From the NCBI GenBank assembly GCA_944393575.1, contig CALYAP010000013.1, positions 1-38,968 of the forward strand: a DNA stretch of 38,968 bases, read 5' to 3'. The notes beneath the pieces are model-generated. The model was not told the DNA's origin. It saw only the letters and a list, made by a program, of their open reading frames with translations, and made no database searches. A program made the position numbers and the translations under genes. Within the stretch, counting starts at the first letter, position 1. Every line of letters begins with the position of its first letter. Positions 4,506 to 37,060 of this stretch are shown piece after piece. The DNA comes from an uncultured Clostridia bacterium (GTDB taxonomy: Bacteria; Bacillota; Dehalobacteriia; UBA4068).

Positions 4506-4585
4506 CCAGCTAATATAGCTTCATCAGATATTTAGTTTCTCTTTATCAAATCTTCTTTTTTTACATATCAGCGCTTAATAAACGG

Positions 4586-4609
4586 CTTATTCTGTAGCTC
4601 TACAATAAG
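4586..4609 (+). promoter_or_regulatory. Possible VanR-activated promoter before vanW
   Basis: An imperfect inverted repeat, CTTATT..GTAG / CTAC..AATAAG (two-base asymmetry), lies between vanS and vanW. TACAAT at 4601-4606 can act as a -10 box with no good -35, as expected for an activator-dependent promoter. VanR binding is inferred. Confidence 0.35.
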
Positions 4610-4670
4610 AGTATCAGGATAAGTCGTTTTGTTACGGCAATTATTTTTGACAGATAAGGAAGTGATGTTG

Positions 4671-7340: not shown

Positions 7341-7342
7341 GC

Positions 7343-9478
7343 ATGGCGGTCAATACCCGTTGCGGGGGATTGGACTATTTTAAGCTAATAGCTGCTTTGT
7401 TGGTAGTAGCTATCCATACTTCTCCTTTAGCCACCCTTAACGCTGATGCCGACTTTATCCTCACCAGAGTGATTGCCAGAGTGGCAGTTCCCTTCTTCCT
7501 GATGGTATCAGGCTATTTTATCCTACCAAGGTATCTTTTCCGGCATGATAATGATAAAGCTCCTCTGCTCAACTTTTTTAAGAAAACAGCTGCTCTATAT
7601 GCTCTGGCTAGCCTGATCTATCTGCCGGTGAGCATCTATGCAGGCTATTTCGACCAACTAACTCCGATCAAGCTGCTCCAAATCATCTTCTTCACCAGTG
7701 ATTTTTATCACCTATGGTATCTGCCCGGAGTAATCATTGGCATGGGATTGGTTTATCTGCTCAGCCGCCGGCTTTCTTTTTCATGGATAGCAGCGATCTC
7801 TCTGATACTCTATCTTATCGGCATCCTGGGCGATAGCTATTTTGGTTTAGTAGAACAGGTTCCATGGCTAGCAGCAGGATATCAAGGCGCCCTGGAGCTG
7901 TTCGGTTATACCCGCAACGGGCTCTTCTATGTTCCGCTTTTCTTGGTGATGGGAGCTTGGCTGCAACAGAGACCCAACAAGCTGTCTCGCCAGAGCGTTA
8001 TCATCGGGCTGCTTATCTCTTTGACCCTGCTGATCGCTGAAGGGTTGCTGCTTCGCTCTCTGGGACTGCCACGCCATGATAGCATGTATCTATCGCTGAT
8101 CCCCTGCTGCTTCTTCCTCTATCAATTACTATTATCATGGGAAATCGAACCTGCTCCTCGTCTGCGTAAGCTGGCCATGTGGATCTATCTGCTGCATCCT
8201 TTGGTCATTATCGCGATTCGGGGACTCGGCGAAGCCATAAGTATGACACAGCTTTTGGTTGACAACAGCATTGTTCATTACCTGCTGGTTTGCTTAGGGG
8301 CAATCATCCTGTCTGTCATTGTGACTACAATACCCCGCCCCAAGCGGAAAGACAGCTTCCCACGTGAACGGGCCTGGATCGAAATTGATCTGGCTCATTT
8401 ACGTCATAATGTTGCAGTACTGCGCTCGCTGCTGCCCGATAGCTGCCAGCTAATGCCGGCAGTCAAAGCCGATGCTTATGGCTTAGGAGCAATACCTATC
8501 ACTCAAGCATTAGCAGCAGATGATATCCATTGCTTTTGTGTCGCCTCTTTAAGCGAGGCTTTGGAACTGCGGCAGGCCAAAATCACAGCAGATATCCTTA
8601 TTCTGGGCTACACTCATCCAGATGATTTCCCGCTGCTGAAACAGTATAACCTAATACAAACCGTACTCGATTATCATTATGCGCAGGAACTAAATGCCTC
8701 CAGACTCAAACTGAGAGTGCATCTAAAAATAGATACCGGCATGCACCGTCAGGGCGAACGTGATGATAACTTCAATGCCATCAAAGCTATTTTAGCCATG
8801 GAATCGCTACAGATAGAAGGCATGTATACTCACCTAGCGATGGCCGACAGCATCAAGGAACAAGATATAGAGTATACACAGATGCAGCTGGCCCATTTCT
8901 CCACTTTAATAGCACGCTTACAAGCAGAAGGGATCACCATCCCGGCTCTTCATGTACAAAGCAGCTATGGAATCATCAACTACCGTCAACTCAACTATAA
9001 CTATGCCCGGCCAGGTATCGCCCTCTACGGCGCTATCGATAGCCGGCATGTTCTCCCCGGAATGATGCCGGATCTTAAGCCGGTTTTTGCGCTGAAAACA
9101 CGTATCAGCACTATTAAAGAACTGTCTCCCGGAGAAGGCGCAGGTTATGACTTGGCTTATACTGCTAAAAGCAAAAGACGTATCGCTATGCTCACTATTG
9201 GCTATGCTGACGGCATTCCCCGCAGTCTTTCAGAGAAAAAAGCTTCTGTCCTGGTTAATGGGCAGCGGGCGCCAATCATCGGCAAAATCTGTATGGATCA
9301 GATGATGATCGATATCAGCAAGATCAGCCAGGTACGTCCCAATGATATCGCGACCATTATTGGCCAGGATGGGCAGGATAGTATTACTGCTGTTGATTTT
9401 GCCACCTGGGACGATACTATAGCCAATGAGATCCTTAGCCGACTCGGACGTCGTTTGGTCAGGATCTATCACCAATAA
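7343..9478 (+). CDS. vanT: Membrane-bound serine racemase VanT
   Basis: A 711-residue two-domain protein. Residues 1 to about 335 form a multi-pass acyltransferase-3-type membrane domain (about ten hydrophobic segments), thought to take up or bind L-Ser. Residues about 345-711 are a fold-type III alanine/serine racemase with the PLP lysine Lys375 in VKADAYG and the second catalytic Tyr602 in GAGYD. At Asn695 (TIANEI) alanine racemases have Tyr; VanT proteins have Asn there, which favours serine. It supplies D-Ser for VanG. The ATG at 7343 follows GGGAGG; the ATG at 7328 lies inside the end of vanXY. It is the last gene of the van cluster. Confidence 0.93.
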   Translation: MAVNTRCGGLDYFKLIAALLVVAIHTSPLATLNADADFILTRVIARVAVPFFLMVSGYFILPRYLFRHDNDKAPLLNFFKKTAALYALASLIYLPVSIYAGYFDQLTPIKLLQIIFFTSDFYHLWYLPGVIIGMGLVYLLSRRLSFSWIAAISLILYLIGILGDSYFGLVEQVPWLAAGYQGALELFGYTRNGLFYVPLFLVMGAWLQQRPNKLSRQSVIIGLLISLTLLIAEGLLLRSLGLPRHDSMYLSLIPCCFFLYQLLLSWEIEPAPRLRKLAMWIYLLHPLVIIAIRGLGEAISMTQLLVDNSIVHYLLVCLGAIILSVIVTTIPRPKRKDSFPRERAWIEIDLAHLRHNVAVLRSLLPDSCQLMPAVKADAYGLGAIPITQALAADDIHCFCVASLSEALELRQAKITADILILGYTHPDDFPLLKQYNLIQTVLDYHYAQELNASRLKLRVHLKIDTGMHRQGERDDNFNAIKAILAMESLQIEGMYTHLAMADSIKEQDIEYTQMQLAHFSTLIARLQAEGITIPALHVQSSYGIINYRQLNYNYARPGIALYGAIDSRHVLPGMMPDLKPVFALKTRISTIKELSPGEGAGYDLAYTAKSKRRIAMLTIGYADGIPRSLSEKKASVLVNGQRAPIIGKICMDQMMIDISKISQVRPNDIATIIGQDGQDSITAVDFATWDDTIANEILSRLGRRLVRIYHQ

Positions 9479-17913: not shown

Positions 17914-18915
17914 TCACCTATTCATTTCAGCAACCAAAGCATCGGTAAACGCCTTGGTACCAGTAGAACCTCCTAGATCAAAAGTCAAAAACTTACCACT
18001 GGCAGCTACCTTAACCAGCGAATCTTCAATAGCTTGGGCAGCATCTTTTTCACCTAAGTGCCGCAGCATCATCACTCCGGAGAGAATAATTGCCGTCGGG
18101 TTAGCCATATCCTTGCCAGCGATATCCGGAGCGCTGCCATGAATGGCCTCAAAGACTGCTGCTTGTTTGCCGATATTGGCGCCAGGGGCTACACCCAAGC
18201 CACCAACCAGGCCGGCGCAGAGATCGGAGACAATATCGCCATAAAGATTAGGCAAGACCAAAACATCATATTTTTCCGGGGCAATCACTAGGTTCATACA
18301 CATGGCATCGACTATCATCTCTTCCAGCTCAATAGTTGGATACTCCTTAGCTACCTTGCGTGCCTCTTCAACAAACATACCGTCAGTGCATTTCATAATA
18401 TTGGCTTTATGTACGGCAGTGACTTTATGACGGTCATTAGCCACCGCATAATCAAAGGCATAGCGGATGATCCTGTTGCAGCCCTCGCGGGTGAATAATT
18501 TGATGCTTTCAGCAGCATCCTTGCCCACCATGTGCTCGATACCGGCATAAAGATCCTCGGTATTTTCCCTGACGATCACCAAGTCAACGTTCTGATACCG
18601 AGAAGGAATATTGGGATAATTTTTAGCCGGACGCAGGTTAGCATACAAATCCAGCTCCTTGCGCAGAGCTACATTAACACTGCGGAAACCGCAGCCGATC
18701 GGAGTCGTAACCGGTCCTTTTAGCGCTACACCGGTACTTTTGATCGATTCGATTACTCTATCTGGCAGAGGGGTGCCAAATTTCTCGATCTGAGCAGCAC
18801 CGGCCTCCTCGATATGCCAGTTGATTTTGACGCCGCTGGCATCGATCACTTGACGGGCAGCAGCAGCTACTTCCGGACCAATACCATCGCCGGGGATCAA
18901 AGTTACATCATACAT
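17914..18915 (-). CDS. icd: NAD-dependent isocitrate dehydrogenase
   Basis: A 333-residue short-type enzyme of the isocitrate/isopropylmalate dehydrogenase family, oxidising isocitrate to 2-oxoglutarate and CO2. The start LIPGDGIGPE, the substrate loop SVNVALRKELDLYANLRP, VRENTEDLYAG and the cofactor segment IHGSAPDIAGK are clear. After HGSAP come Asp and Ile where NADP enzymes have Lys and Tyr, which predicts NAD+. Ser in the SVNVALRK loop favours isocitrate over isopropylmalate. GAGGT precedes the ATG. It sits between aconitase and gntR in one operon. Confidence 0.9.
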   Translation of the reverse strand: MYDVTLIPGDGIGPEVAAAARQVIDASGVKINWHIEEAGAAQIEKFGTPLPDRVIESIKSTGVALKGPVTTPIGCGFRSVNVALRKELDLYANLRPAKNYPNIPSRYQNVDLVIVRENTEDLYAGIEHMVGKDAAESIKLFTREGCNRIIRYAFDYAVANDRHKVTAVHKANIMKCTDGMFVEEARKVAKEYPTIELEEMIVDAMCMNLVIAPEKYDVLVLPNLYGDIVSDLCAGLVGGLGVAPGANIGKQAAVFEAIHGSAPDIAGKDMANPTAIILSGVMMLRHLGEKDAAQAIEDSLVKVAASGKFLTFDLGGSTGTKAFTDALVAEMNR

Positions 18916-18941
18916 AATGATACCTCTTCATTGGTTAAATT

Positions 18942-20876
18942 TTAGCTGAGTTCCTTAGTATAGTTAAGCAGTCCGCCAGCGATCAGCATCGCTCCCTGAC
19001 GGTCGGAAATATTAGCCATGGCCTGGAAATCGTAGCCACGTGTTTTATTGGTAATAGTAAAAGGTTTGCCCTCCACTGCGGCTTTGACCTGTGCCGGTGC
19101 ATTCTTGATCACCAGCTCATCGCCTTCCTCGATTTTGTCATAATCAGCAGCGTCGGCAAAAACTAACGGGATAATACCATTATTCACCAGGTTAGCTGCG
19201 TGGATGCGGGCGAATGATTTAGCCAAAACTGCCTTGACCCCCAGATATAGAGGAGCCAGAGCCGCATGCTCACGGCTGGATCCCTGCCCATAATTATCAC
19301 CGCCAAGGATAAAGCCGCCGCCCTTAGCCTTAGCCTTAGCCGGGAATTCCGGATCGCAAGGGGTCAAGCAATATTCAGCCAAGTAAGGGATATTGGAACG
19401 GTAGGGCAGCAATTTAGCATTAGAAGGCATGATATGGTCAGTAGTGATATTATCACCGGTTTTGATCAAAACCTCACCGGTGACCTCATCAGCCAATGGG
19501 TGATGAGTGGGGAAAGGCTTGATATTAGGCCCCCGGACTACTTCAACCTCAGAGCCATCTTCAGCCGGAGGTACTACCATATTATCACAGTAATCAAAAT
19601 GGTCAGGAATTAATGTTTCCGGTACTGGTGAATAATCACGTGGGTCAGTAATCACACCAGTCAAAGCAGAAACAGCAGCAGTCTCCGGGCTGACCAGATA
19701 GACCTTGGCTGAAGCCGTGCCACTGCGGCCATAGAAATTGCGGTTAAAGGTACGCAGAGAGACCGCATCAGTAGCTGGAGCCTGCCCCATACCGATGCAA
19801 GGACCACAAGCACTCTCCAAAATTCTCGCGCCTGCATCAACCATCTTGGCTAAAGCGCCATTGGCAGCCAGCATGGACAATACTTGTTTAGAACCAGGAG
19901 CGATGACCAAGCTGACATTCTCCGCCACTGTCTTACCATCAAGAATAGCGGCAACCTTCATCATATCGGCAAAAGAAGAATTAGTACAGCTACCGATAGC
20001 CACCTGATTGACAGTAATACCGGCAATCTCGCTGATTGGCGCCACATTATCCGGGCTCGAGGGCTGTGCTGCCAGCGGAACCAGCTGGGAAAGATCGATA
20101 GTAAGGCTTTCATCATAGGTAGCGTCAGCATCAGCCACCACTTCCTGCCAATCTTCCTCACGTCCCTGAGCACGCAAGAACTGACGGGTAACCTCATCAC
20201 TGGGGAAAATCGAGGTCGTAGCTCCCAGTTCAGCACCCATATTAGTGATAGTAGCGCGTTCCGGCACCGAGAGAGTCTTGACGCCCTCGCCAGCATATTC
20301 CATGATCTTGCCTACACCGCCCTTAACGCTGAGCAGGCGCAGAACCTCTAAAATGATATCTTTAGCAGTAACCATTGGCTGCAATTTGCCCACCAACTCA
20401 ATGCGGCAGATTTTGGGCATCATCAGATAGTAGGGGCCGCCGCCCATAGCTACCGCAACATCCAAGCCGCCAGCGCCGATTGCCAGCATACCCAGGCCGC
20501 CGCCAGTAGGAGTATGGCTATCGGAGCCTAACAAGGTCGCCCCTGGTTTACCAAAACGCTCTAAATGAACCTGATGGCAGATACCGTTACCGGGACGGGA
20601 GAAATATACCCCGTGTTTTTTGGTGACGGTTTGGATATATTTATGATCATCGGCATTTTCAAAACCGGCCTGTAAAGTATTATGGTCGATATATGCAACC
20701 GATTTATCAGTTTTGACTTTATCGATCCCCATGGCCTCAAACTGCAAATAAGTCATAGTTCCAGTGGAATCTTGGGTCAAGGTCTGGTCAATGCGCAAAG
20801 AGATCTCCTCTCCTGCTTTCATTTCCCCGCTTAGCAGATGGCGGGAGATAATTTTTTGGGCGATATTCTGACTCAT
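18942..20876 (-). CDS. acn: Aconitate hydratase
   Basis: A 644-residue aconitase of the compact type common in Clostridia, interconverting citrate and isocitrate with a [4Fe-4S] cluster. The cluster cysteines are Cys297 (GSCTNSS), Cys357 and Cys360 (SACGPCIGMG). LGSDSHTPTGGGLGML and the swivel-domain GGDNYGQGSSREHAAL are present. The ATG at 20876 follows AAGGAG by six bases; the longer reading to 20900 starts on the ribosome site. It is second in the operon after Re-citrate synthase. Confidence 0.93.
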   Translation of the reverse strand: MSQNIAQKIISRHLLSGEMKAGEEISLRIDQTLTQDSTGTMTYLQFEAMGIDKVKTDKSVAYIDHNTLQAGFENADDHKYIQTVTKKHGVYFSRPGNGICHQVHLERFGKPGATLLGSDSHTPTGGGLGMLAIGAGGLDVAVAMGGGPYYLMMPKICRIELVGKLQPMVTAKDIILEVLRLLSVKGGVGKIMEYAGEGVKTLSVPERATITNMGAELGATTSIFPSDEVTRQFLRAQGREEDWQEVVADADATYDESLTIDLSQLVPLAAQPSSPDNVAPISEIAGITVNQVAIGSCTNSSFADMMKVAAILDGKTVAENVSLVIAPGSKQVLSMLAANGALAKMVDAGARILESACGPCIGMGQAPATDAVSLRTFNRNFYGRSGTASAKVYLVSPETAAVSALTGVITDPRDYSPVPETLIPDHFDYCDNMVVPPAEDGSEVEVVRGPNIKPFPTHHPLADEVTGEVLIKTGDNITTDHIMPSNAKLLPYRSNIPYLAEYCLTPCDPEFPAKAKAKGGGFILGGDNYGQGSSREHAALAPLYLGVKAVLAKSFARIHAANLVNNGIIPLVFADAADYDKIEEGDELVIKNAPAQVKAAVEGKPFTITNKTRGYDFQAMANISDRQGAMLIAGGLLNYTKELS

Positions 20877-20971
20877 AATTTTCTCCTTAGCAATCAGCAA
20901 ATTTTAATATCAATTTTATTATCCGTCTTGGTTTCTATCGTCTGTTTCGCTCTAGCAGAATAAACAACAAC

Positions 20972-22321
20972 TTAGATAATTTTCAGCTCCATACCAACCT
21001 GCTCCAATTCCTCAAAGCCGATAGTCGTGATCCGTCCGCCGTCATATTGGGCGTCGACCCACTCTTTGAGCTTTACAACCCTTTTATCATTCTTATCAAT
21101 ATCTTCCTTCAGGTAGTTAGATAGCCACATTGCAATACCGGCCTGACCAGAGGTCTGGGTGATAGCTACCCCAGGAGGGCTCTTCAACAAAGAGGTGGTA
21201 TCAAAAATATTGTAGATCTCTTCGTCTTTAAGCATACCATCAGCATGTATACCTGCCTGGGTAATATTGAAATTACTGCCCACGAAAGGAGTATTCGGGG
21301 GAATTTTATAACCGATATCCTTTTCAAAGAAATCGGCGATATCACGAATAACCGTGGTCTCCATACCATCTAAGGTGCCTCGTAACTGGGCATATTCAAA
21401 GACCATTGCCTCCAAAGGAGTATTACCGGTACGTTCGCCAATGCCCAACAATGAGCAGTTAACGGAAGACGCGCCATAAAGCCAGGCAGTACCAGAATTG
21501 ATAACTGCCTTATAGAAGTCGTTATGACCATGCCATTCGATCAGATGAGATGGGAAGCCGGCATAATTACGCAGACCATAAATAATACCGGGGACGCTGC
21601 GCGGTAAAGATGCGCCCGGGTAAGAAATACCATACCCCATGGTATCACAAGCGCGGATTTTGATCGGGATACCGCTTTCTTTCATCAGGTTGTTCAGCTC
21701 TAGCGCAAAGGGGATAACAAAGCCGTAAAAGTCGGCGCGGGTAATATCTTCAAAATGACAGCGCGGTACAATACCCACTTCCAGAGCATCAGAGATAACG
21801 GAAAGATAACCTTCCATAGCTTCGCGGCGTGTTTTTTTCAGTTTTTTAAAAATATGATAATCAGAGCAGCTGACTAGGATTCCGCATTCTTTCAGCCCCA
21901 TATTTTTAGCCAATTGGAAGTCTTTTTTAGAAGCGCGAATCCAACCGGTGATCTCTGGAAAATAATAGCCCAAGTCCTGGCAACGTGACAAAGCAGCTTT
22001 ATCCCTATCACTATATAGGAAGAATTCGCACTGGCGGATCTTACCCTTGCGGCCACCAAGTTTATGTAACATCTTATATAAAGTAACTATTTGTTCTACC
22101 GTATAAGGTGCGCGGCTTTGCTGTCCATCGCGGAAAGTAGTATCGGTGATCCAAATTTCTCTTGGCGGCTCCAAGGGAGTCAAGCGGTTGTTAAATGCAC
22201 ACTTTGGCACATCAGAATAAGAGAACATATCCCGATATAGATTTGGCTCAGCTACGTCTTGAAGGTTATATTTATACTCACTTTCAGTGAGGACATTCTT
22301 GGTTTCACTGAATTCAATCAT
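20972..22321 (-). CDS. Re-citrate synthase (HMGL/isopropylmalate synthase fold)
   Basis: A 449-residue protein of the DRE-TIM metallolyase family, not the ordinary GltA family. The signature DTTFRDGQQSRAPYT (Asp60, Arg64) and the metal-binding HGHNDF are seen. Together with a C-terminal region longer than the catalytic barrel and its place ahead of aconitase and isocitrate dehydrogenase, this fits the Re-face citrate synthase known from Clostridium kluyveri and other anaerobes. It condenses acetyl-CoA and oxaloacetate to citrate, feeding 2-oxoglutarate and glutamate synthesis. Homocitrate or isopropylmalate synthase is the alternative, but the neighbours favour citrate. AAAGGAGG precedes the ATG. 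Confidence 0.87.
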   Translation of the reverse strand: MIEFSETKNVLTESEYKYNLQDVAEPNLYRDMFSYSDVPKCAFNNRLTPLEPPREIWITDTTFRDGQQSRAPYTVEQIVTLYKMLHKLGGRKGKIRQCEFFLYSDRDKAALSRCQDLGYYFPEITGWIRASKKDFQLAKNMGLKECGILVSCSDYHIFKKLKKTRREAMEGYLSVISDALEVGIVPRCHFEDITRADFYGFVIPFALELNNLMKESGIPIKIRACDTMGYGISYPGASLPRSVPGIIYGLRNYAGFPSHLIEWHGHNDFYKAVINSGTAWLYGASSVNCSLLGIGERTGNTPLEAMVFEYAQLRGTLDGMETTVIRDIADFFEKDIGYKIPPNTPFVGSNFNITQAGIHADGMLKDEEIYNIFDTTSLLKSPPGVAITQTSGQAGIAMWLSNYLKEDIDKNDKRVVKLKEWVDAQYDGGRITTIGFEELEQVGMELKII

Positions 22322-24125: not shown

Positions 24126-27100
24126 ATGCCGTTGAATAAAAACCTCAAAAAAGTAATGCTGATCGGTTCTGGCCCCATCGTCATCGGCCAGGCTGCTGAA
24201 TTCGACTATGCGGGAACCCAGGCTTGCCGGGCGCTCAAATCATTAGGCCTGGAAGTGGTGCTGGTCAACCCTAATCCAGCCACCATTATGACTGATACCG
24301 CGATGGCTGACCGCATCTATATCGAGCCGCTCACCGAAACAGTTTTGCAACGCATCATCACCAAAGAAAAGCCAGACGGACTGATCTCTACCATGGGCGG
24401 ACAAAACGGACTGACACTCTCGATGAAATTAGCCCGTTCCGGATTTCTCAAAGAGCAAGGAGTAGCACTCCTTGGCGCTGGACCGGAAACGATTGATAAA
24501 GCAGAGGACCGCCTCCTCTTCAAACAAACCATGGAAAAACTGGGACAACCTTGTGTTCCTTCTGAAGTCGTTACTGATGTCCAGGCAGCGCTAGATTTCG
24601 CCGATACTATCGGCTATCCGGTGATCGTTCGCCCGGCCTTCACTCTAGGCGGTTCTGGCGGCGGTATTGCCAATACCAAGGAAGAACTGGAGGAGATCGC
24701 CCATGGCGGCATCCAGGAATCGCCGATCGGCCAAATCCTGGTGGAAAGATGCATCTCCGGCTGGAAAGAAATCGAATTCGAAGTGATGCGCGATGCAGCG
24801 GGTAATAGCATTGCAGTCTGCTCGATGGAAAACTTTGACCCAGTCGGTGTTCATACTGGTGATTCCATCGTTATCGCGCCAGCAGTAACCCTGGCTAATC
24901 CTGAATATCAGATGCTGCGTTCTGCTGCCTTGCAAATCATTGAGGAGCTGCAGGTAGAAGGCGGCTGTAATGTCCAGTTTGCCCTCCACCCGGAGAGCTT
25001 TGAATATGCTGTTATCGAGGTCAACCCACGTGTTTCCCGCTCCTCAGCACTGGCCTCTAAAGCTACCGGCTATCCTATCGCCAAGGTAGCGGCACAAATA
25101 GCAGTCGGCCTGCGACTGGACGAGATCGCCAATGCAGTCACCGGCAAAACAACGGCTTTCTTCGAACCGACCCTGGACTATGTAGTAGTCAAACTGCCCA
25201 AGTGGCCTTTTGATAAATTTGTTTATGCCAGCCGTAAGCTGGGAACTCAGATGAAAGCTACCGGCGAAGTGATGTCGATTGCCCCCACCTTTGAGCAGGC
25301 TTTGATGAAAGCAGTGCGTGGAGCGGAAATTTCACTAGATACTCTGACCCAGCCGAAGCTAGCGCATTATAGCGATGAAGAACTGCTGAGCGCCCTTAGT
25401 GAAAGTACTGATGAACGGCTATTTATGGTCTACGAGGCTTTAAAACGCGGCATCAGCAGCGAGCGCATCCATGAACTGACCATGATCGACCAGTGGTTTC
25501 TGGGCAAACTGCTTCACTTAGTTCAAATAGAACAAGAGCTTAGCAGCAACCCCTTAACTCAAGACCTTTACCACGAGGCTAAGGTAGCTGGTTTCCCCGA
25601 TAAAGCGATTTCCAGACTGAGCGGCCAGCAGCTGCCGGAGCATATCCCGGCTGCTTATAAGATGGTCGATACCTGCGCCGGTGAATTCGAAGCAGAAACG
25701 CCCTACTTCTATGCAGCCTATGACACGGAAAACGAAGCAAAAGAGTTTCTCCATGAACATAAAAGCGGCAAAAAACGTATCTTAGTCTTTGGTTCCGGTC
25801 CGATCCGCATCGGCCAGGGTATTGAGTTCGACTATGCATCAGTACACTGTGTCCGCACACTCAAAAAACTCGGCTATGAAGTGGTGATGGTCAATAACAA
25901 TCCAGAGACCGTCTCCACAGACTTTGATACAGCCGACCGGCTCTATTTCGAACCTCTCTATGGTGAAGATGTCATGGATATCATCGCCACTGAGCAGCCC
26001 TATGGTACAGTAGTGGCTTTCGGCGGCCAAACTGCTATTAAACTTACCAGAACCCTGGCGGAAAACAATATCCGCATTCTGGGCACCTCTGCTGATTCCA
26101 TCGACACAGCAGAAGATAGAGAGCGTTTTGATGAAATTCTCAGCAGATTAGGAGTGCAGCGTCCTCAGGGACATTCGGTCTTCACTAAAGAAGAAGCGCT
26201 GGCAGCAGCGCATGATCTGGAATATCCAGTCTTAGTACGGCCTTCCTATGTTTTAGGCGGACAAAATATGAGTATCGCCTTCTCCGATGAAGCAATCGAT
26301 CGGTATATGGATATCATCCTTTCCGGCAGCCCGATCGAAAATCCGATCCTGGTAGATAAATACCTGATGGGCTTGGAGGTAGAGGTCGACGCTATCTGCG
26401 ATGGCGAAGAAGTCCTGATCCCTGGCATTATGGAGCATGTCGAGAGGGCAGGTATCCACAGCGGCGATTCGATCGCTATGTATCCGCCGCGTAATCTCTC
26501 CGGTCCGGTCATCCGTCAGCTATGCGAGATTACCCGTACCTTGGCGCTGGCACTGGAAACTCATGGCTTGATCAATATCCAGTTTGTTATCCATCATAAC
26601 AAAGTCTATATCATCGAGGCGAATCCGCGTGCATCACGCACTGTTCCCTATATGAGTAAAGTGACCGGTTTGCCAATCGTAGAGATTGCCACTCGGGCCA
26701 TGCTTGGCGAGCGGATCATTGATATGGGTTATACCCCGGGACTTTATCATGAATCGGCCTGCAAAGCAGTCAAGGCTCCGGTCTTCTCCTTTGAGAAACT
26801 GACCGGCGTTGACACCACGCTTGGCCCTGAGATGAAGTCCACCGGCGAAGTATTAGGTATTGGCCGCACCATTGAGGAAGCCATGTATAAAGCCCTGCTC
26901 TCTGCCGGCTATACTCTAAGCAATAAGGGCGGTATGCTTATCACCGTTCAAGACCGTGATAAGCCAGAGATCGTCTCCACTGCCCGCCGCTTCTTCAATC
27001 ATGGGTTTGAGATGTATGCTACTGCCGGTACTGCCGAATTGCTCAACCGCAATGGCATTACCACCACCTCTGTCGGTAAAATCCACGAGGGGGAAAACGA

Positions 27101-28166
27101 TATCATCGACTTGCTGGAAAGCGGCAAAATCAATTATGTTATCTCCACCTCTGAATCAGGACAGATGCCACATGCCGATAGCGTACAGATGCGCCGCAAG
27201 GCAGTTACCAGCCGTATCCCCTGCTTGACCAGCATCGATACCGCCAATGTTCTGGCTGATGTTATCGAGAGCGGCTACAATCAGCGCAATATGGAGCTGA
27301 TTGATATCGCCCGTCTGCCTAATAGCAAGCAAGAACTGCGCTTCATCAAGATGCGCGGTAGTGGCAGCGATAGCATCTGCTTCGATTGCTTTGATCAGGA
27401 TATCGATAATCCGGAATCCTTGGCGGTCCGTTTGACCAGCCGCACCCGCGGTATCGGCGGCGATAATATTATCCTCATTGAGCCCTCCTGGCGGGCAGAC
27501 GCTGCTATGCGCAAATTCAATGTTGATGGCAGCCCGGATGAAATCGGCGGTAATGCTATCCGCTGCGTCGCCAAATATCTCTATGAAAGCGGCCGGGTAC
27601 CAAAAACCAGAATGTGCATCGAGACCGGCGGACGTGTCCGCGAGATGGATCTCTTTATCCAGGAAAATGAAGTCAATTCTGTAACTGTAGATATGGGCCA
27701 GCCGGATTTCAATGCCTCGGCGGTGCCAGTACGCCGGGCAGGCCCCGTCATTGACCAGCCTTTCTCTACCGGCGGCTATGATTTCCGCATCACCTGCCTA
27801 TCGATGGGCAATCCGCATTGTGTGATATTTGTTCCAGATGTTGATGCCATCGATATGCAGACCGTAGGGCCGCTGTTGGAGAACGCAGCCATCTTCCCCA
27901 ATCGTGCCCACGTAGCTTTTGCAGCAATAACGGACTGGAGTACCATCCGCATGCGGGCCTGGGAGCGCGGCATTGGCGAAACATTAGCCTCGGGCGATTC
28001 GGCCTGTGCGGTGGTGGCAGCGGCTACCGAGCAACAGCTCTGTCCGATGGATCAGGATATCTTCGTCAAGCAAAAGGGCGGCGATCTGGTAATCAAACGT
28101 ACCGCTCATGGAGTATTGATGACCGGCGATGCCATTAAAGATTTCGAAGGCATCATCGAATTATAA
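24126..28166 (+). CDS. carB: CarB fused to a DapF-like domain lacking both catalytic cysteines
   Basis: A 1346-residue fusion with no stop or frameshift between the parts. Residues 1 to about 1060 are a complete carbamoyl-phosphate synthase large subunit: two ATP-grasp halves, each opening with a GSGPI..IGQ..EFDYA motif (about residues 14 and 557), and an MGS-like allosteric domain (about 935-1055). Residues about 1072-1346 are a full-length diaminopimelate-epimerase-like domain with GIGGDN, FNVDGS, GNPHC and ERGIGETLA. In DapF the two catalytic Cys lie in CGN and ACG motifs; here they are Gly1141 (EIGGNAIRC) and Ser1289 (LASGDSAC). The substrate Asn of the N-terminal GxGND motif is also Ser1081. 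CarB activity should be intact, but ordinary DAP epimerisation is unlikely. The domain may be structural, regulatory or catalytically different. Confidence 0.93.
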   Translation: MPLNKNLKKVMLIGSGPIVIGQAAEFDYAGTQACRALKSLGLEVVLVNPNPATIMTDTAMADRIYIEPLTETVLQRIITKEKPDGLISTMGGQNGLTLSMKLARSGFLKEQGVALLGAGPETIDKAEDRLLFKQTMEKLGQPCVPSEVVTDVQAALDFADTIGYPVIVRPAFTLGGSGGGIANTKEELEEIAHGGIQESPIGQILVERCISGWKEIEFEVMRDAAGNSIAVCSMENFDPVGVHTGDSIVIAPAVTLANPEYQMLRSAALQIIEELQVEGGCNVQFALHPESFEYAVIEVNPRVSRSSALASKATGYPIAKVAAQIAVGLRLDEIANAVTGKTTAFFEPTLDYVVVKLPKWPFDKFVYASRKLGTQMKATGEVMSIAPTFEQALMKAVRGAEISLDTLTQPKLAHYSDEELLSALSESTDERLFMVYEALKRGISSERIHELTMIDQWFLGKLLHLVQIEQELSSNPLTQDLYHEAKVAGFPDKAISRLSGQQLPEHIPAAYKMVDTCAGEFEAETPYFYAAYDTENEAKEFLHEHKSGKKRILVFGSGPIRIGQGIEFDYASVHCVRTLKKLGYEVVMVNNNPETVSTDFDTADRLYFEPLYGEDVMDIIATEQPYGTVVAFGGQTAIKLTRTLAENNIRILGTSADSIDTAEDRERFDEILSRLGVQRPQGHSVFTKEEALAAAHDLEYPVLVRPSYVLGGQNMSIAFSDEAIDRYMDIILSGSPIENPILVDKYLMGLEVEVDAICDGEEVLIPGIMEHVERAGIHSGDSIAMYPPRNLSGPVIRQLCEITRTLALALETHGLINIQFVIHHNKVYIIEANPRASRTVPYMSKVTGLPIVEIATRAMLGERIIDMGYTPGLYHESACKAVKAPVFSFEKLTGVDTTLGPEMKSTGEVLGIGRTIEEAMYKALLSAGYTLSNKGGMLITVQDRDKPEIVSTARRFFNHGFEMYATAGTAELLNRNGITTTSVGKIHEGENDIIDLLESGKINYVISTSESGQMPHADSVQMRRKAVTSRIPCLTSIDTANVLADVIESGYNQRNMELIDIARLPNSKQELRFIKMRGSGSDSICFDCFDQDIDNPESLAVRLTSRTRGIGGDNIILIEPSWRADAAMRKFNVDGSPDEIGGNAIRCVAKYLYESGRVPKTRMCIETGGRVREMDLFIQENEVNSVTVDMGQPDFNASAVPVRRAGPVIDQPFSTGGYDFRITCLSMGNPHCVIFVPDVDAIDMQTVGPLLENAAIFPNRAHVAFAAITDWSTIRMRAWERGIGETLASGDSACAVVAAATEQQLCPMDQDIFVKQKGGDLVIKRTAHGVLMTGDAIKDFEGIIEL

Positions 28167-28767: not shown

Positions 28768-29376
28768 ATGAAAATAGTAGATGCAAAAGGTAAAAATTGC
28801 CCGATCCCAGTAGTAATGACCAAAAAAGAAATCGATGCCGGTGCGAAAGAACTAATGGTAGAAGTGGACAACCCCATTGCTGTACAGAATGTTAGCAGAC
28901 TAGCTACCGCGATGTCCTTCGATGTTGCCACTGAGGAAATAGACGGTGGCTTCCGTCTGACTTTGACCAGCAATGGTGCTGCTGCTGACGATAATGCAGT
29001 CAAAGAAGCCATTGTCTCAGCCCAGCAGTGTGCCCCAGGCGGTAGCTGGGCAGTCTTTGTTGGACGTGATGTCATTGGCAGTGGTGACCGTGAATTAGGC
29101 AGTTCTTTGATGAAAATGTTTTTCTATACTCTTTCAGAAAGCGATGACCTGCCAACTAATATTTTATTAATGAATGATGGCGTCAAACTGGCTGTTAACA
29201 ACCCTGATACCATTGAACATCTCCAGACCTTAGTGAATAAAGGCGTAGAACTACTTGTCTGTGGTACCTGCCTCAATTTCTACGGTCTCAGCGAAGAGTT
29301 GAAAGTCGGTACAGTAAGCAATATGTACGATATCCTTAGCCGTATGCAGGCTGCCACCAAGGTGATTTCTCTATGA
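28768..29376 (+). CDS. yedF: Selenium metabolism protein YedF
   Basis: A 202-residue protein. The N-terminal SirA/TusA-like domain (about 1-72) has the signature GKNCPIPV with Cys11. The C-terminal DsrE/F-like domain (about 90-200) has a conserved Cys pair in LLVCGTCLNFYGL. This two-domain form is the YedF family, which co-occurs with selenium-using genomes and is thought to handle selenium. In some organisms the first Cys is selenocysteine; here it is a Cys codon. GAGGAGG precedes the ATG. It overlaps the next gene by four bases (ATGA). Confidence 0.9.
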   Translation: MKIVDAKGKNCPIPVVMTKKEIDAGAKELMVEVDNPIAVQNVSRLATAMSFDVATEEIDGGFRLTLTSNGAAADDNAVKEAIVSAQQCAPGGSWAVFVGRDVIGSGDRELGSSLMKMFFYTLSESDDLPTNILLMNDGVKLAVNNPDTIEHLQTLVNKGVELLVCGTCLNFYGLSEELKVGTVSNMYDILSRMQAATKVISL

Positions 29377-29859: not shown

Positions 29860-30864
29860 CTACTGCTCTTTCAGCGTCTCAACTGCCTCATAAAAAGCGA
29901 TCATATTCTCAACACTGGTCGGTGGAGGCACATCACAGCCAGCGGAAATAATCGTCCGGTTATTGGTATCCTCATAAATCTTTCTCACTTTGGGGAAAAG
30001 ATCCTCAGCTTTACCAAGATAGAGATCCTCAGCAGGGCTGATATTGCCGCATAGATACTGATTAGGAGCAAGCTTAGAGGCTGCCAATGCCATATCAACT
30101 TCTTTATCCACATCTAGAACCGTAGTACCTGTCCCCAAAGAATAGGGCAATAAGCGGTTGGTATCACCGCAGATATGTAACCTTGAAGCGCCGCCATAGG
30201 ACTGAATCAGCTTAACCATCTCAGTATGGAGTGGCATAATGAACTCCTCATACATAGCCGGAGAGATCAAGGAGCAATTAGGCTCGACGATCTGAATGCC
30301 GTTAATTCCCAGTTCCATCTGTTTCTCGGTGAATTTCATACAATTATCAAAGAAAAATTTGATGCCTTCCATAGTCTCATCTTCATCTTCTAGCAGCTCG
30401 CAAAGTGCGTCTTCCATACCACGGGCATTGCAATATTCGGTGAAGGGACCAATGCAGATACCGAAGATGAATTTTTCCTCTTTGCGGGCTTTGAGTACTT
30501 CTTTAAGAGTAACCAAACGGTTGCCCATTCTAGTTCCTGGCTCAAAAGTTGGCTTAGGCAGATTATGTACATCAGAGACATCCTCTAAAATAGGATCTGC
30601 ATGATAGCCGCTATCAGCTAGAATCGGTTTTTGGCCAAAGTCTTCCAGCTGTTCGTGGAAATCAGAATCCGGAAGAATGCAATCAATATGATATTGATCG
30701 CAGCAATGAATATAGGCATTGGCTCTTTTGATCGGATCATAAACAAATTCTTCCTGATTCAAGCCCTCCTGAATACATACCCAATCAATCGCCAACGGCA
30801 TAAAAGGTGGTCGATCCACTTTTTCCCCGGCAAGAAACTTTACTGTTCTTTCATATCCGTTCAT
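29860..30864 (-). CDS. UroD/MtaA-family methyltransferase-like protein
   Basis: A 334-residue TIM-barrel protein of the uroporphyrinogen decarboxylase superfamily, closer to MtaA/MtbA-type methylcobamide methyltransferases than to heme UroD. The zinc ligands expected for that group are all present: His230 and Cys232 in HICGD, and Cys310 in SAGCDVPP. These enzymes move a methyl group between a corrinoid protein and a thiol. The ATG at 30864 follows AAAGGAG; the upstream extension is not supported. It is the last gene of the operon with the corrinoid protein and DUF2284. The acceptor (coenzyme M, tetrahydrofolate or another) cannot be told. Confidence 0.85.
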   Translation of the reverse strand: MNGYERTVKFLAGEKVDRPPFMPLAIDWVCIQEGLNQEEFVYDPIKRANAYIHCCDQYHIDCILPDSDFHEQLEDFGQKPILADSGYHADPILEDVSDVHNLPKPTFEPGTRMGNRLVTLKEVLKARKEEKFIFGICIGPFTEYCNARGMEDALCELLEDEDETMEGIKFFFDNCMKFTEKQMELGINGIQIVEPNCSLISPAMYEEFIMPLHTEMVKLIQSYGGASRLHICGDTNRLLPYSLGTGTTVLDVDKEVDMALAASKLAPNQYLCGNISPAEDLYLGKAEDLFPKVRKIYEDTNNRTIISAGCDVPPPTSVENMIAFYEAVETLKEQ

Positions 30865-30959: not shown

Positions 30960-31520
30960 CTAAAGGCTGAACAAAAGCGCCCCAAAATAAGTCACCGTAT
31001 TAGGACCATTGATATATTTCATACCGCTAAGGTTAGCCAGTTCATAAACAGCTACACCATATGCCTCCAAAGAGGACACTGCCTGATCTGGAAACCGACA
31101 TGGCTGCTGATCCCGTTTAGCGCAACGGCGGCAGATAGAACAGCCGCCACTTCCTAAATGCAGCATTTTAGCGAAGGGCAGCTCACTACTATGCTGACGA
31201 ATGTTGTTGACCAGGGCATTATGCCGATCGCCAGCGTCCAGCATTCCTTCTATATCGAAAGAATCCTCCAGGGGACGGATCGTCTGATAGACCAGAGCCC
31301 AATCAAAACTCTGCGCCTGAGCCATCAGCTGATCGATCTCGCCGATATCAGGTGGGCACATCCAACACTGTCCATAAAGGCCACAGGAATTCATCTCGCA
31401 GAGTTGGCGGAAATCAGCCGAAAAAGTGATATTCGCCACTTTGACTATACTGGCTTTAGTTGCTCCTAATTGCAGAGCTAAGTCTATTAATCGCTGATTG
31501 ATCTCCTGTTGAGTATCCAT
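30960..31520 (-). CDS. DUF2284 cysteine-rich metal-binding protein
   Basis: A 186-residue protein with cysteine clusters CGLYGQCWMCPP and CSICRRCAKRDQQPCRFP, typical of the DUF2284 family of predicted metal or iron-sulfur binding proteins. It lies between the corrinoid protein and the UroD gene in the same operon. A role in electron transfer or reductive activation of the corrinoid is plausible but inferred. GGAG precedes the ATG. Confidence 0.8.
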   Translation of the reverse strand: MDTQQEINQRLIDLALQLGATKASIVKVANITFSADFRQLCEMNSCGLYGQCWMCPPDIGEIDQLMAQAQSFDWALVYQTIRPLEDSFDIEGMLDAGDRHNALVNNIRQHSSELPFAKMLHLGSGGCSICRRCAKRDQQPCRFPDQAVSSLEAYGVAVYELANLSGMKYINGPNTVTYFGALLFSL

Positions 31521-31624: not shown

Positions 31625-32263
31625 TTAAAGCGATTTACAATATGCTACTGCCGCCTCTGCAGCAGCAGTGGCATCATTAGTATATTTATCTGCGCCAATT
31701 TGCTCACAAAAAGCCTCGGTAACAGGAGCGCCGCCTACCATGATATAAACTTTATCCCTGATGCCGGCTTCTTTAGCCAAATTAACGACATTTTCCATCT
31801 GTCCCATTGTAGTAGTCAACAATGCTGAGCAGGCGATTATGTTACAGCTCTCATTGACCGCTGTTTCCACATATTTTTCCGGAGCAACGTCATTGCCCAG
31901 ATCAATGACCTCTAACCCCTTACCCTCCATCATCATTCTCACCAAGTTTTTACCGATATCATGGAGGTCGCCTTTGATACTACCGATACAAACCTTGCCT
32001 TGGACTTCATTATCCCCAGCCTGGAGCAATGGTTTCAGCAGCTCTGTGCCGACATTCATCGCCCGTGCCGCTACCAAGACCTCCGGGACAAAGATCTCTC
32101 CGGCCTGAAACTGATCGCCAACAGCATTCATGCCAGCCAAGAGTCCTTCATCCAAGATAACCTTAGCATCAATACCTTCATCAATAGCCTGCTGTACCAG
32201 CTCCTTAACTTTCTTTGATTTACCCTTCTGCAGCAATTGAGAAATGTCTTCCAAAATACCCAT
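31625..32263 (-). CDS. Corrinoid (B12-binding) methyltransferase protein
   Basis: A 212-residue two-domain protein. The N-terminal helical cap domain (about 1-85) has the MNAVGDQFQAGEIFVPEVL motif. The C-terminal Rossmann-type domain binds cobalamin through the lower ligand His101 in GDLHDIG and the later VGGAPV. It is of the MtaC/MtbC/MttC type, which carries a methyl group between a substrate-specific methyltransferase and an MtaA-type enzyme. GGAGGTGA precedes the ATG. It is first in the operon. No MtaB, MtbB or MttB gene is seen next to it. Confidence 0.92.
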   Translation of the reverse strand: MGILEDISQLLQKGKSKKVKELVQQAIDEGIDAKVILDEGLLAGMNAVGDQFQAGEIFVPEVLVAARAMNVGTELLKPLLQAGDNEVQGKVCIGSIKGDLHDIGKNLVRMMMEGKGLEVIDLGNDVAPEKYVETAVNESCNIIACSALLTTTMGQMENVVNLAKEAGIRDKVYIMVGGAPVTEAFCEQIGADKYTNDATAAAEAAVAYCKSL

Positions 32264-33195: not shown

Positions 33196-34485
33196 TTATA
33201 AAATATTCGGCGTGTAACGGTATTGCAATGGTGAAACACCAGTTAGTTTTTTAAACACCTTGGTAAAGTAGCTCTGACTCTCAAACCCTACCATCAAAGC
33301 GATATATACCATCTTCAAATCATTATTTCTCAGTAATGACTTGCTTTTCTCGATCCTAACTTCATTGAGAAAACTATTAAAGGTAGTTCCCATCTCTTTT
33401 TTAAAAACACGGCTAAAATACGCCGGAGATAAATAGACCATTTTGGCGACATCATTAAGAGTGATCTTCTCTGCATAATGCTGCCTGATGTATAAAGTAG
33501 CCTGATGGATAGCATTAGCATGCTTAATATCGTTATAGGTAAAAAGATCAATAAAAGAATTGGCAGTGCGAACCAGCCAGGAGCATAAAATTTCCCAAGT
33601 TTGAATATTGGGAAGGGTTAAGAGATAATCATGTGTTAACATCAAACACTTTTCCGGATCTGCACCATTATGCACAGCAGTGCGGGAAATCAGTACCAGC
33701 AGCTCAGCCACCCTGGACTTAGCTACACTGAAAACATGCCCGCTGGCAAAAAAGATATAGCCAAAAAGCTCATTGAGATAGTTCTCTACTGTATCGCGTT
33801 CGCCTTTGGCTACTGCCGCCAAAAGCTTCTCTTCAACGTCAAAAGGATAAGAGGTAGGTCCATCTACCCCCTTTAGCCGGTAAATAGATGAAGATATCTG
33901 AGTTTGGATAGCCAAAGACATTTGGGCATCAAGCATATCATTAGCTGCTCCGATATTATTCATAAAGCTAATCGACATAAAAAGAAGGGTCGATAAATCA
34001 TTCACCTTACGCGGCTGGATATATGGTATATTATCCAGAGCTTTAACTACTTTTTGCCGGCAATCATCAGCTAGTTGATATTTATCAACCAGTTCACAGG
34101 TTTCATAGTCATCGCGGTCAACCATCAAAAAAGGACCAACAGTAATCTCCGCCTCGTTGGTTTCTTCAACTACGATCGGCGAAGAAAAACAGGTCAGTCC
34201 CATCGCACAAAAATAGATATACTTGCCGCCAAACCTTTCCGCCTCACGCATGCCGTTGATATAAGTCTTAAGGCATAAAGATTTAGGTCTACCAGCCAAT
34301 TCACAAATATGGCAGGAAGCGCAGCCATGACCATATTCAGAGACAACACTGCCATCAGCAGAAGAGACAATCGTGCCTAATCCAGTGGCAGAGGCAAAAG
34401 CTTTGGCGCAATCTTGCACTAGTTTGGTATCAAAATTACCCCGTCGGGGCTGTCCATAATCCACTTGATCCGGTTGATATGTCAT
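33196..34485 (-). CDS. PocR-domain AraC family regulator
   Basis: A 429-residue regulator. The N-terminal PocR sensory domain (about 10-150) has a cysteine-rich segment GHGCASCHICELAGRPKSLC and YFCAMGLTCFSSPIV. The C-terminal AraC/XylS double helix-turn-helix (about 325-425) has LNDVAKMVYLSPAYFSRVFKKEMG and ALMVGFESQSYFTKVFKKLTG. PocR domains are known to sense small substrates such as propanediol or short carbon compounds in B12-dependent pathways. It lies between the corrinoid operon and the UroD selenoprotein, so it likely activates one or both. The ribosome site (GGGGG) is unusual but usable. Confidence 0.88.
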   Translation of the reverse strand: MTYQPDQVDYGQPRRGNFDTKLVQDCAKAFASATGLGTIVSSADGSVVSEYGHGCASCHICELAGRPKSLCLKTYINGMREAERFGGKYIYFCAMGLTCFSSPIVVEETNEAEITVGPFLMVDRDDYETCELVDKYQLADDCRQKVVKALDNIPYIQPRKVNDLSTLLFMSISFMNNIGAANDMLDAQMSLAIQTQISSSIYRLKGVDGPTSYPFDVEEKLLAAVAKGERDTVENYLNELFGYIFFASGHVFSVAKSRVAELLVLISRTAVHNGADPEKCLMLTHDYLLTLPNIQTWEILCSWLVRTANSFIDLFTYNDIKHANAIHQATLYIRQHYAEKITLNDVAKMVYLSPAYFSRVFKKEMGTTFNSFLNEVRIEKSKSLLRNNDLKMVYIALMVGFESQSYFTKVFKKLTGVSPLQYRYTPNIL

Positions 34486-34715: not shown

Positions 34716-36074
34716 ATGTCTAAAGAACTGCTTTTCAAGACACTGCGGCATGAAGAAACAGAGCGCGCCCCTTGGGTGCCTTTTGCTGGAGTACATGCCG
34801 GTGCACTGATCGGTGCCGATGCAACCCAGGTTCTTACTGATGAAGAGTTACTCGTCAAAGCCTTAATGGAAGTACATAAGCTCTACAAGCCCGACGGAAT
34901 GCCAATTGTGTTCGATCTGCAGCTAGAGGCAGAAATCCTCGGCTGCGATCTGGTCTGGGCCAAAGATTGTCCGCCTTCTGTCAGCACCCATCCGCTGGAA
35001 GAGACAATGACAGTCCCCTGTGAATGTACTATCCCTACCAAGGAAGAAGGCCGTTTACCTCTGGTCTTATCCGCAATGAGGAGGATGAAAGAAGCGGTCG
35101 GCGATGATACAGCGCTCTATGGCCTTTTCTGTGGCCCATTTACCCTAGCGTCACATCTGCGGGGCAATGATATTTTCATGGATATGTATGACGATGAGGA
35201 CTATGTCCATGACCTGCTAGATTTCTGCACCAAGGTTGGTAAAAGCATGATCGATATGTATGTCGAAGTAGGGATGGATGTTATCGCTGTAGTAGATCCG
35301 CTGGTTTCACAAATATCCGTCAACCATTTTGAAGAATTCTTCGCCGAACCATTTACGCAGCTTTTCGACTATATCCGGGAAAAAGGTGTCTTCTCTTCCT
35401 TCTTTGTCTGTGGTGATGCTACCAGAAACATCGAAGCTATGTGCAAAACAGGTCCGGACTCTATCCATGTTGATGAAAATGTCGATCTCGTAGCCGCCAA
35501 ACAGGTCAGTGACCGCTATAATGTAGTCATGGGCGGCAATATCCCACTGACCTCAGTGATGCTGCATGGCTCTCAGCAGGATAATATGAAGATTGCCGTA
35601 GACTTGATCGATGCTGTAAACTCGAAAAGCAACTTTGTTCTGGCTCCTGGCTGAGACATGCCGTATGAAATCCCCATTGAAAATACAATTGGGGTAGCGC
35701 AGGCTGCGCTGAATACGGATGAAACCAGGGAGATGGTCAAAAACTATATCGCTGGAGCAGATTTTGATCTCGATGCCGTGGAATTGCCAGACTATGAGCA
35801 TTTAACCAAACCACTGGTAGAGGTCTTTACGCTCGACTCAGCTACTTGTGCTGCCTGCACCTATATGATGGGCGCAGCCAATGTAGCCAAAGCCACTTAT
35901 GGTGATAAAATCGATATGGTAGAATACAAATTCACCATTAAAGAAAATATCGCCCGCTGCATGAAAATGGGAGTCAAGAACCTCCCCTCCATCTATATCA
36001 ATGGCCAGCTTAAATTCTCTTCACTGATCCCCAGCAAAGAAGAGTTGGAAAAGGCGATCGAAGAGGTTATGTAA
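34716..36074 (+). CDS. UroD-family selenoprotein fused to a thioredoxin-like domain
   Basis: A 452-residue protein if TGA at 35652-35654 is read as selenocysteine (residue 313). Residues 1 to about 335 are a UroD/MtaA-type barrel. Sec313 lies in LAPG-U-DMPYEIPIEN, exactly where the paralogue at 29860 has Cys310 in SAGCDVPPPTSVEN, the third zinc ligand. The HxC motif is changed: Phe230-Val-Cys232 in FFVCGD. Residues about 365-452 form a thioredoxin-like domain with Cys378 and Cys381 (TCAACTYM) and a probable cis-Pro segment (KNLPSIYING). Without read-through both halves look like separate proteins. GGGAGGAGAGG precedes the ATG. Possibly a selenol-based methyl or alkyl transferase whose Sec is reduced by its own thioredoxin domain; this is inference. 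Confidence 0.85.
35672..35694 (+). promoter_or_regulatory. Candidate bacterial SECIS element
   Basis: A hairpin starting 17 bases after the TGA: CCCCATT(G) pairs with (C)AATTGGGG, one T bulged, with an apical loop of six to eight bases that begins with G if the top G-C pair is open. Distance and size fit bacterial SECIS hairpins, though the loop is less typical than that at 28263. Confidence 0.6.
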
Positions 36075-36151: not shown

Positions 36152-37060
36152 ATGGAAATGTATCTGATAACAGGCTTTTTGGGTTCCGGGAAGACCACTT
36201 TCATCAAAAATATTATTAAGGCACTGTCAAATAAGCGAATTTATCTGATTATCAATGAATTTGGCAAAGAGGGTATTGACGGCTCTCTACTCAAAGAATT
36301 AGGTTCAACGATTGCAGAGATCAACAATGGCTCGATCTTCTGCGTCTGCCGTATCAATCAATTTGAAGAATCACTCGATGCAGCAGTTGATGATAAGCCA
36401 GATATCATTTTGGCAGAAGCCTCTGGACTCTCTGATCCGACCAATATCCGCAAAATTATGGCGCAGGATAAATATGCCTCTATCGATTATCGCGGCGCGA
36501 TGTGTTTGGTGGACGCGCCCCGTTTTGCCAAAGTAGTAGATACAGCTCTGGTGGTTCGCAAACAACTCTCCATCAGCAGTCTGGTACTGATCAACAAAAC
36601 CGACCAGGCCTCTCTGGAACAAATCAAGATTGCCGAGCAGACGATAGCTGAAATCAATCCCCAGGCAGATATCGTCCTTACCAGCTTTGCGCAGATCTCT
36701 CCGGAAATACTTTTAACAATGCGCCAAAAAGAATATGATGCTGAAGCCAGTACCGCACGGGATATCACTCTCCAAAAATATCTGTTGACGATCAGCGAAA
36801 CAATGAAAATCAAGCAACTTGAAGGTTTTCTCAAGATGATCGCCGATGACAGCTACCGCATCAAAGGCTTTGTCCATTTAGAAGAGCAGCTGCTCTTGGT
36901 TGACTGCGTGGGTAGCTTTGTAGATGTTTACCAATATACCGGAGAAGTAGTTGGAGAGCTGAATAAGGTGGTCGTTCTGGCTGGCAAAGGCATGCCCACC
37001 CGCAAAAGCATCAAAAACGCAATGAAATGGTATGACAGCTGTATTCTTAAAATGGAGTAA
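36152..37060 (+). CDS. CobW/COG0523-family metallochaperone GTPase
   Basis: A 302-residue G3E GTPase. Walker A is GFLGSGKTT (about residues 8-16), and NKTD is the guanine specificity motif. The family's metal-binding CxCC motif appears as FCVCR (Cys64, Cys66), lacking the third Cys. A C-terminal CobW domain ends with a lysine-rich tail. COG0523 proteins deliver or insert metals such as cobalt or zinc. Following the UroD selenoprotein by 78 bases, it may load the metal of the corrinoid or UroD enzymes; this is inferred from context. GGGAG precedes the ATG. Confidence 0.85.
   Translation: MEMYLITGFLGSGKTTFIKNIIKALSNKRIYLIINEFGKEGIDGSLLKELGSTIAEINNGSIFCVCRINQFEESLDAAVDDKPDIILAEASGLSDPTNIRKIMAQDKYASIDYRGAMCLVDAPRFAKVVDTALVVRKQLSISSLVLINKTDQASLEQIKIAEQTIAEINPQADIVLTSFAQISPEILLTMRQKEYDAEASTARDITLQKYLLTISETMKIKQLEGFLKMIADDSYRIKGFVHLEEQLLLVDCVGSFVDVYQYTGEVVGELNKVVVLAGKGMPTRKSIKNAMKWYDSCILKME

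Follow-up and report, generated by a model that had tools for sequence, protein, structure and literature searches.

UroD-fold methyltransferases are taken to work through zinc activation of a thiol. A gene of an uncultured Clostridia bacterium of the gut, related to the methane-pathway enzyme MtaA, raises the question of how such a barrel could work when the usual His-x-Cys...Cys zinc site is altered at two of its three positions. The gene lies at 34716–36074 (+) of the window, by which we mean the whole 38,968-nucleotide stretch of DNA analyzed here. Its product, 452 amino acids long when TGA is read as selenocysteine (Sec, U), joins a UroD barrel to a thioredoxin-like domain, and the UGA is codon 313.

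A UroD-thioredoxin fusion with a broken zinc triad

The UroD barrel occupies residues ∼1–335 and is followed by the C-terminal thioredoxin-like domain. In Pfam, URO-D matches residues 2–324 (185.8 bits) and Thioredoxin_3 matches residues 375–448 (29.5 bits against a cut-off of 24.8). Both the thioredoxin fold and a CxxC motif are present, the latter being CAAC at codons 378–381 (35847–35858, +), as seen in the translation and in homologues. The AlphaFold2 model of the fusion protein (pLDDT 92.9, pTM 0.89) has Methanosarcina mazei MtaA (4ay8) as its closest structure, with a Z score of 42.0 and an rmsd of 1.8 Å over 326 aligned residues; the HemE fold scores Z ∼36 and the MetE barrels Z ∼22.

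Alignment to the PDB sequence of M. mazei MtaA (4ay7; E 7.9e-24) places FVCG on HICG and APGU on APGC. Phe230 (codon 35403–35405, +) thereby takes the position of the MtaA histidine ligand, Cys232 (35409–35411, +) is the invariant ligand-position cysteine, and the UGA of Sec313 (35652–35654, +) falls on a zinc cysteine, as indicated by translation, alignment and codon comparison. A paralogue in the window (29860–30864, −; frame to 30927), 335 residues long from its ATG, has the HxC...C form with His230, Cys232 and Cys310 counted from that ATG. The preliminary description of this DNA had assigned these residues to the two proteins, placing the altered site at 35394–35655, and had proposed that the usual zinc triad is broken in the fusion protein; translation bears out the assignment, and F230, C232 and U313 agree with the proposal.

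The UGA codon at position 313 is predicted to encode selenocysteine

Comparison with the gene of a sister genome (L014) predicts with high confidence that the UGA at 35652–35654 is read through as Sec. The 312 codons before the UGA contain 137 synonymous-only versus 17 non-synonymous differences; the 139 codons past it contain 52 versus 4, with zero stops. Three protein pairs from a second Sec group likewise have an open frame beyond the UGA, and homologues carry Cys where the window protein has UGA. The genome encodes tRNA-Sec (72.3 bits, cut-off 47) and SelB (373 bits, cut-off 242). TGA terminates 3 of the 26 window genes, so it has not been reassigned.

A SECIS-like hairpin lies at 35670–35695 (+), 15 bases 3′ of the UGA, and a U-A pair in it is C-G in the sister genome, a compensatory change. 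An 86-nucleotide stretch has a folding z of −2.39; statistical support for a SECIS is weak. When synonymous codons were shuffled, z was −1.1 for the window and −2.06 for the sister, and the mean for Sec rows was −0.75 versus −0.07 for Cys rows; an Rfam search for SECIS gave no match at gathering thresholds. Since synonymous recoding and the comparison with Cys homologues gave weak support, the hairpin was dropped as decisive evidence for Sec. This weakness, together with the window genes that do end in TGA, is what could be said for the UGA being a true stop, with the downstream frame a separate or decayed gene. Such a reading is already contradicted by the purifying selection past the UGA, by the Cys of homologues at the equivalent place, by the recurrence of the same UGA in 11 distinct proteins and by the tRNA-Sec and SelB of the genome, and we consider it extremely improbable.

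A gene for YedF, a sulfurtransferase-like protein linked to selenium metabolism, was also found near the cluster (28768–29376, +; 203.8 bits, cut-off 110).

Loss of the zinc histidine maps to a single branch

Homologues were gathered as 226 rows, of which 177 were distinct and at least 200 residues long; eight that belonged to neither class were left out, leaving 86 non-His and 83 HxC proteins. The non-His rows came from similarity searches that started with the window protein or one of its relatives, and the HxC rows from P0002, L002 and L004 and as bystanders. Position 230 in the 177 rows is His in 86, with Cys232 in 83 of these, and the non-His proteins (n = 86) have Phe in 82, Leu in three and Tyr in one. 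Cys232 is kept in 85 of the 86, the exception being a partial row (L091). A scan of genome contigs for close relatives gave 55 loci (L009 being the L014 gene); together with the window and five more, Phe230 is present in 60 of 61 aligned rows, and the exception is a distant HxC protein (L068).

In a tree of 75 non-His rows below 93% identity and 14 HxC rows below 40% identity, the change at position 230 maps to a single branch, with support of 100 for the split between non-His and HxC proteins. The concern that Phe230 might be a one-off change is thereby answered. A check of the site across UroD-family selenoproteins, as had been suggested, found that others exist: among 11 distinct proteins, Phe stands at 230 in 10 and Tyr in one. 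Members of the F-type clade occur in gut Bacillota such as Blautia, Faecalicatena, Eisenbergiella and Gemmiger, and most of these have Cys instead of Sec.

A thioredoxin partner and clade-specific residues

A CxxC thioredoxin, fused or adjacent, accompanies 81 of the 86 non-His proteins versus none of the 83 HxC proteins. The motif is CAAC in 75, CAPC in three and CPPC in three; the five rows without a thioredoxin are the partial L059, L065 and L091 and the LxC paralogues L089 and L090. In the unfused loci examined the thioredoxin is a separate small gene adjoining the UroD gene, so the link holds in fused and split forms. This linkage fits the idea, put forward in the preliminary description, of a Cys-Sec redox pair. 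Near one Sec-UroD gene, four small genes for thioredoxin-like or related proteins follow one another in a tandem run (L097:9923–11066, +).

Several residues are distributed in the same way between non-His and HxC proteins: His147 (86/86 versus 2/83), Glu254 (85/86 versus 5/83), Trp20 (85/86 versus 0/83) and Cys139 (80/86 versus 1/83). These traits share one branch, and their association therefore does not count as independent evidence many times over. His147 (codon 35154–35156, +), invariant in the non-His230 clade only, is a candidate replacement ligand or acid/base. In an alignment with tobacco UROD, His147 falls on the Tyr of PFTLASY, Sec313 on the His of GHG and Asp67 on the Asp of FSDIL. 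By our own transfer of numbering, these tobacco positions may be equated with Tyr164, His339 and Asp86 of the human enzyme, given in one report as binding or catalytic residues (PMC3510221). As both residues align with UROD pocket residues, His147 and Sec313 probably face a common pocket.

The codons of Asp253 and the clade-specific Glu254 lie at 35472–35477 (+). A profile alignment, weak at a probability of 16.6, matches F230/C232/D253/U313 to His641/Cys643/Glu665/Cys726 of Escherichia coli MetE, which tentatively places Asp253 at Glu665, a zinc ligand of MetE; a profile of the family by itself yielded no usable alignment. Glu254 had been considered for that ligand from an equal spacing of 22 residues and was rejected, since the same weak profile alignment with E. 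coli MetE puts Asp253 there instead.

Repeated cysteine/selenocysteine exchange within the clade

Position 313 of the non-His clade is Cys in 72 rows and Sec in 11, with three unscorable (Sec in 11 of 83 scorable rows), whereas in the HxC rows it is Cys in 76, another residue in four and a gap in three, and none of the 80 scorable rows has Sec. One listed match among HxC relatives with a TGA (L142, genome G178) was set aside, as its aligned row carries no Sec. Cys232 is present in all Sec proteins. On the tree, Cys and Sec changed about four times within the non-His clade, and at least three of the changes are forced by well-supported branches. The Sec rows stand at three places: the window's genus, inside a Cys clade; an unfused group (L079, L081, L083, L084, L085, L109, L110 and L111); and L088, whose tree neighbor L080, from the same genome, has Cys. 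In the class around genome G332, 6 of 97 genomes have a match at E 1e-60, and all six carry the UGA form, one as a fragment.

The preliminary description had treated loss of the histidine and gain of Sec as one linked event, and this was not supported: position 230 changed once, and the roughly four Cys/Sec changes came later, inside the clade. A coordinated loss and gain was rejected on the tree, which separates the two. The clade is basically FxC...C, with Sec gained later and repeatedly. Nested in the Sec group are paralogues (L089 and L090, also L114 and L115) with Leu230 and Cys313 that keep His147 and have no thioredoxin nearby; they offer a natural test of which trait accompanies which.

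A corrinoid-linked gene neighborhood

Profile matches identified the genes around the fusion gene. Its usual downstream neighbor, a CobW/COG0523-type GTPase, lies at 36152–37060 (+), and a PocR-domain AraC regulator is divergent at 33196–34485 (−). These are joined by an MtgC-like corrinoid protein (31625–32263, −) and a DUF2284 predicted metal-binding protein (30960–31520, −). The HxC UroD and DUF2284 genes are 32 bases apart in the window (30927 and 30960), and the sister locus L014 has a RACE-type activase between them. Over 68 loci, CobW is found near 55, a corrinoid protein near 33, a RACE-type activase near 26, PocR-AraC near 24, a BioB-like radical SAM protein near 14, DUF2284 near 13 and an MttB/MtmB-type protein near five; the corrinoid protein was not seen in 35 of the 68 within the locus stretch examined. 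CobW is near none of the 83 HxC loci, whose flanks were covered for ∼1.5 kb on each side. A COG0523 subfamily is described beside zinc-dependent corrinoid methyltransferases in one earlier study (PMC2770081).

Some loci carry further methyltransferase-type genes. At L100 a protein of the monomethylamine methyltransferase (MtmB) family (L100:4764–6167, −; Pfam 257.7 bits) adjoins a split FxC UroD, a thioredoxin and CobW; its frame is open over 467 amino acids, so there is no amber codon inside. A gene at L101:6359–6994 (−) has a start similar to it, and the title of a 2026 paper reports that an archaeon has an MtmB homologue of the non-pyrrolysine kind (PMC13044021). L103 has an MttB-type protein beside a fused UroD-thioredoxin. 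At L095 a Sec-UroD gene occurs with two GcvH-like proteins, lipoyl synthase, dihydrolipoyl dehydrogenase and MtrH-like and DGC-domain genes; the Sec-UroD locus L094 was likened to it by gene order and gene starts alone. A search of the window's own genome found no MttB and two matches for pterin-binding proteins. Within corrinoid systems, the UroD-thioredoxin part looks as if it serves as the second methyltransferase or else as a redox partner.

Other parts of the window contain genes of different kinds. A vanG-type glycopeptide-resistance-like cluster at 2741–9478 (+) comprises a VanR-/VanS-like pair, VanW, VanG, a VanXY-like protein and a VanT-like serine racemase; the VanG D-Ala-D-Ser ligase scores 523.7 bits (cut-off 495), and several other members are below exact-type cut-offs. 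The large subunit of carbamoyl-phosphate synthase is fused in frame to the diaminopimelate epimerase DapF at 24126–28166 (+; 1468 and 207.7 bits). A homocitrate/isopropylmalate synthase-type protein, below all cut-offs, is encoded within 17914–22321 (−). It shares this row with what we take to be isocitrate dehydrogenase-like and aconitase-like proteins and may, we presume, be a Re-citrate synthase.

Proposed mechanism and alternative readings

The reading that we tentatively favor is a corrinoid-linked enzyme of the UroD type in which thioredoxin turns over the pair formed by Cys232 and Cys/Sec313. The zinc pocket would have been rebuilt once in a bacterial MtaA-like clade, with His230 replaced by Phe, Cys232 and Cys313 kept and His147 gained, and the classical zinc site would be absent. 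A thioredoxin domain, fused or encoded by the next gene, would have become the fixed partner of the rebuilt barrel, and Cys313 would later have been exchanged with Sec in the window's genus and at least two times elsewhere. The Cys232-Cys/Sec313 pair would itself be the working group: Sec/Cys313 may serve as nucleophile or leaving group in the transfer of methyl (or of sulfur or selenium) with the neighboring corrinoid protein, the pair would become a disulfide or selenylsulfide at one stage of catalysis, and this bond would be reduced by the CxxC of the thioredoxin domain. A thiol/selenol pair is favored because thioredoxin accompanies the loss of the histidine and Sec appears only in the non-His clade. 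A precedent for its geometry is the disulfide between the cysteine zinc ligands Cys620 and Cys704 in zinc-depleted crystals of Thermotoga maritima MetE (PMC539065); in the weak profile alignment, made with E. coli MetE, these positions correspond to C232/U313, and by analogy the fold can bring positions 232 and 313 together. The lipoyl-type neighbors at L095 point to a possible dithiol relay there.

Other observations count against a thiol/selenol pair. The frequent presence of CobW, a putative metal chaperone family, suggests that a metal is still inserted, and His147, Glu254 and, in most proteins, Cys139 could re-ligate one. Zinc or another metal might then sit on Cys232, Cys/Sec313, Asp253/Glu254 and a His147 that replaces His230, with CobW loading it, Sec only tuning the site and thioredoxin keeping the ligands reduced or delivering the substrate thiol. 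Such a re-ligated metal would account for CobW and for the near-invariance of His147 and Glu254 in the clade, and it agrees with the alignment of Sec313 and His147, via the tobacco enzyme and our numbering transfer, with human UROD His339 and Tyr164; a plain zinc site, however, needs no tight thioredoxin link, and the HxC relatives have none. We regard it as possible though not probable, and it is not fully exclusive of the thiol/selenol pair. Quite unlikely, in our estimate, is an ordinary methyl-sulfur or methyl-selenium methyltransferase of the mlp cluster type, in which the ligand change is cosmetic and the thioredoxin protective. The best-matching families are of MtaA/CmuA type and one report ties type 1 mlp clusters to the metabolism of methyl selenides (PMC10418091), both of which speak for it; the same report describes His-Cys-Cys as invariable in Mlps except several Mlps1, and the clade splits from the 14 HxC rows with full support in a tree that was built without named Mlp1-3 sequences.

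Returning to the thiol/selenol pair, we are doubtful that the methyl group is accepted or donated by the protein's own selenol or thiol in place of an external thiol bound to zinc, with the built-in thioredoxin reducing the resulting Cys-Sec bond, in a new selenoprotein family of several bacterial phyla. If this were true, methyl transfer would be coupled to dithiol redox in a branch of corrinoid-linked enzymes.

Novelty and significance

In NCBIfam release 20.0, neither the fused protein nor the unfused Sec protein L084 reaches the cut-off of any model; the matches to MtaA/CmuA, HemE and thioredoxin-like families all fall short of their thresholds. The text of a 2026 inventory of 119 prokaryotic selenoprotein families and subfamilies contains none of the terms uroporphyrinogen, UroD, PF01208, MtaA and methylcobalamin (PMC13188914). 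Among the titles and abstracts retrieved for UroD with selenoprotein, corrinoid, CobW or thioredoxin, none describes a UroD selenoprotein; Haft and Gwadz 2023 and Haft and Tolstoy 2025 were covered only through a 2026 review citing them. The UroD-fold family adds to the known selenoproteins, being absent by name from the 119-entry inventory.

A clade that lacks the zinc histidine, has a fixed thioredoxin and has exchanged Cys and Sec repeatedly would offer a natural experiment on how far zinc-thiol chemistry can be rewired. It may represent an unstudied enzyme branch in which methyl-group chemistry runs on a thiol/selenol pair in place of the usual zinc. Its members occur among gut Bacillota, a setting in which the turnover of one-carbon compounds, sulfur and selenium is important.

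Comparison with known enzymes

The window protein resembles the methylcobamide:coenzyme M methyltransferases MtaA/MtbA (4ay7/4ay8) in its UroD barrel, in the placement of C232 and position 313 on both zinc cysteines and in the corrinoid proteins near part of the loci. It differs from them in the loss of the histidine ligand, the Sec at one Cys position, the gain of His147 and Glu254 and the thioredoxin domain, and it falls below the curated MtaA-type cut-offs (TIGR01463, 157.2 of 235.4 bits; MtaA, 128.3 of 400; MtbA, 131.6 of 600). The Mlps of type 1 mlp gene clusters, as described in one report, are also UroD relatives in anaerobes with a corrinoid protein, a RACE activase and a selenium link (PMC10418091), but keep the His-Cys-Cys that the window protein lacks; that report's text mentions no thioredoxin-fused Mlp and has the word thioredoxin once, in a reference title. 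The C-terminal barrel of MetE, the cobalamin-independent methionine synthase, is related and has an HxC...E...C zinc site whose two Cys ligands are able to form a disulfide (PMC539065). MetE differs in keeping its His ligand, in being without thioredoxin or Sec and in using methylfolate.

HemE, uroporphyrinogen decarboxylase, shares the fold, and its Asp86, Tyr164 and His339 align with D67, H147 and U313 via the tobacco enzyme, but the window protein has Sec (Cys in homologues) instead of His339 and misses the curated HemE cut-off (66.1 versus 302.95 bits). In the glycine reductase selenoproteins, Sec chemistry is regenerated by thioredoxin. Their fold and reaction differ from those of the window protein, and the likeness between them is one of analogy: a selenocysteine that, in the reading favored here, would likewise be returned to its working state by a thioredoxin.
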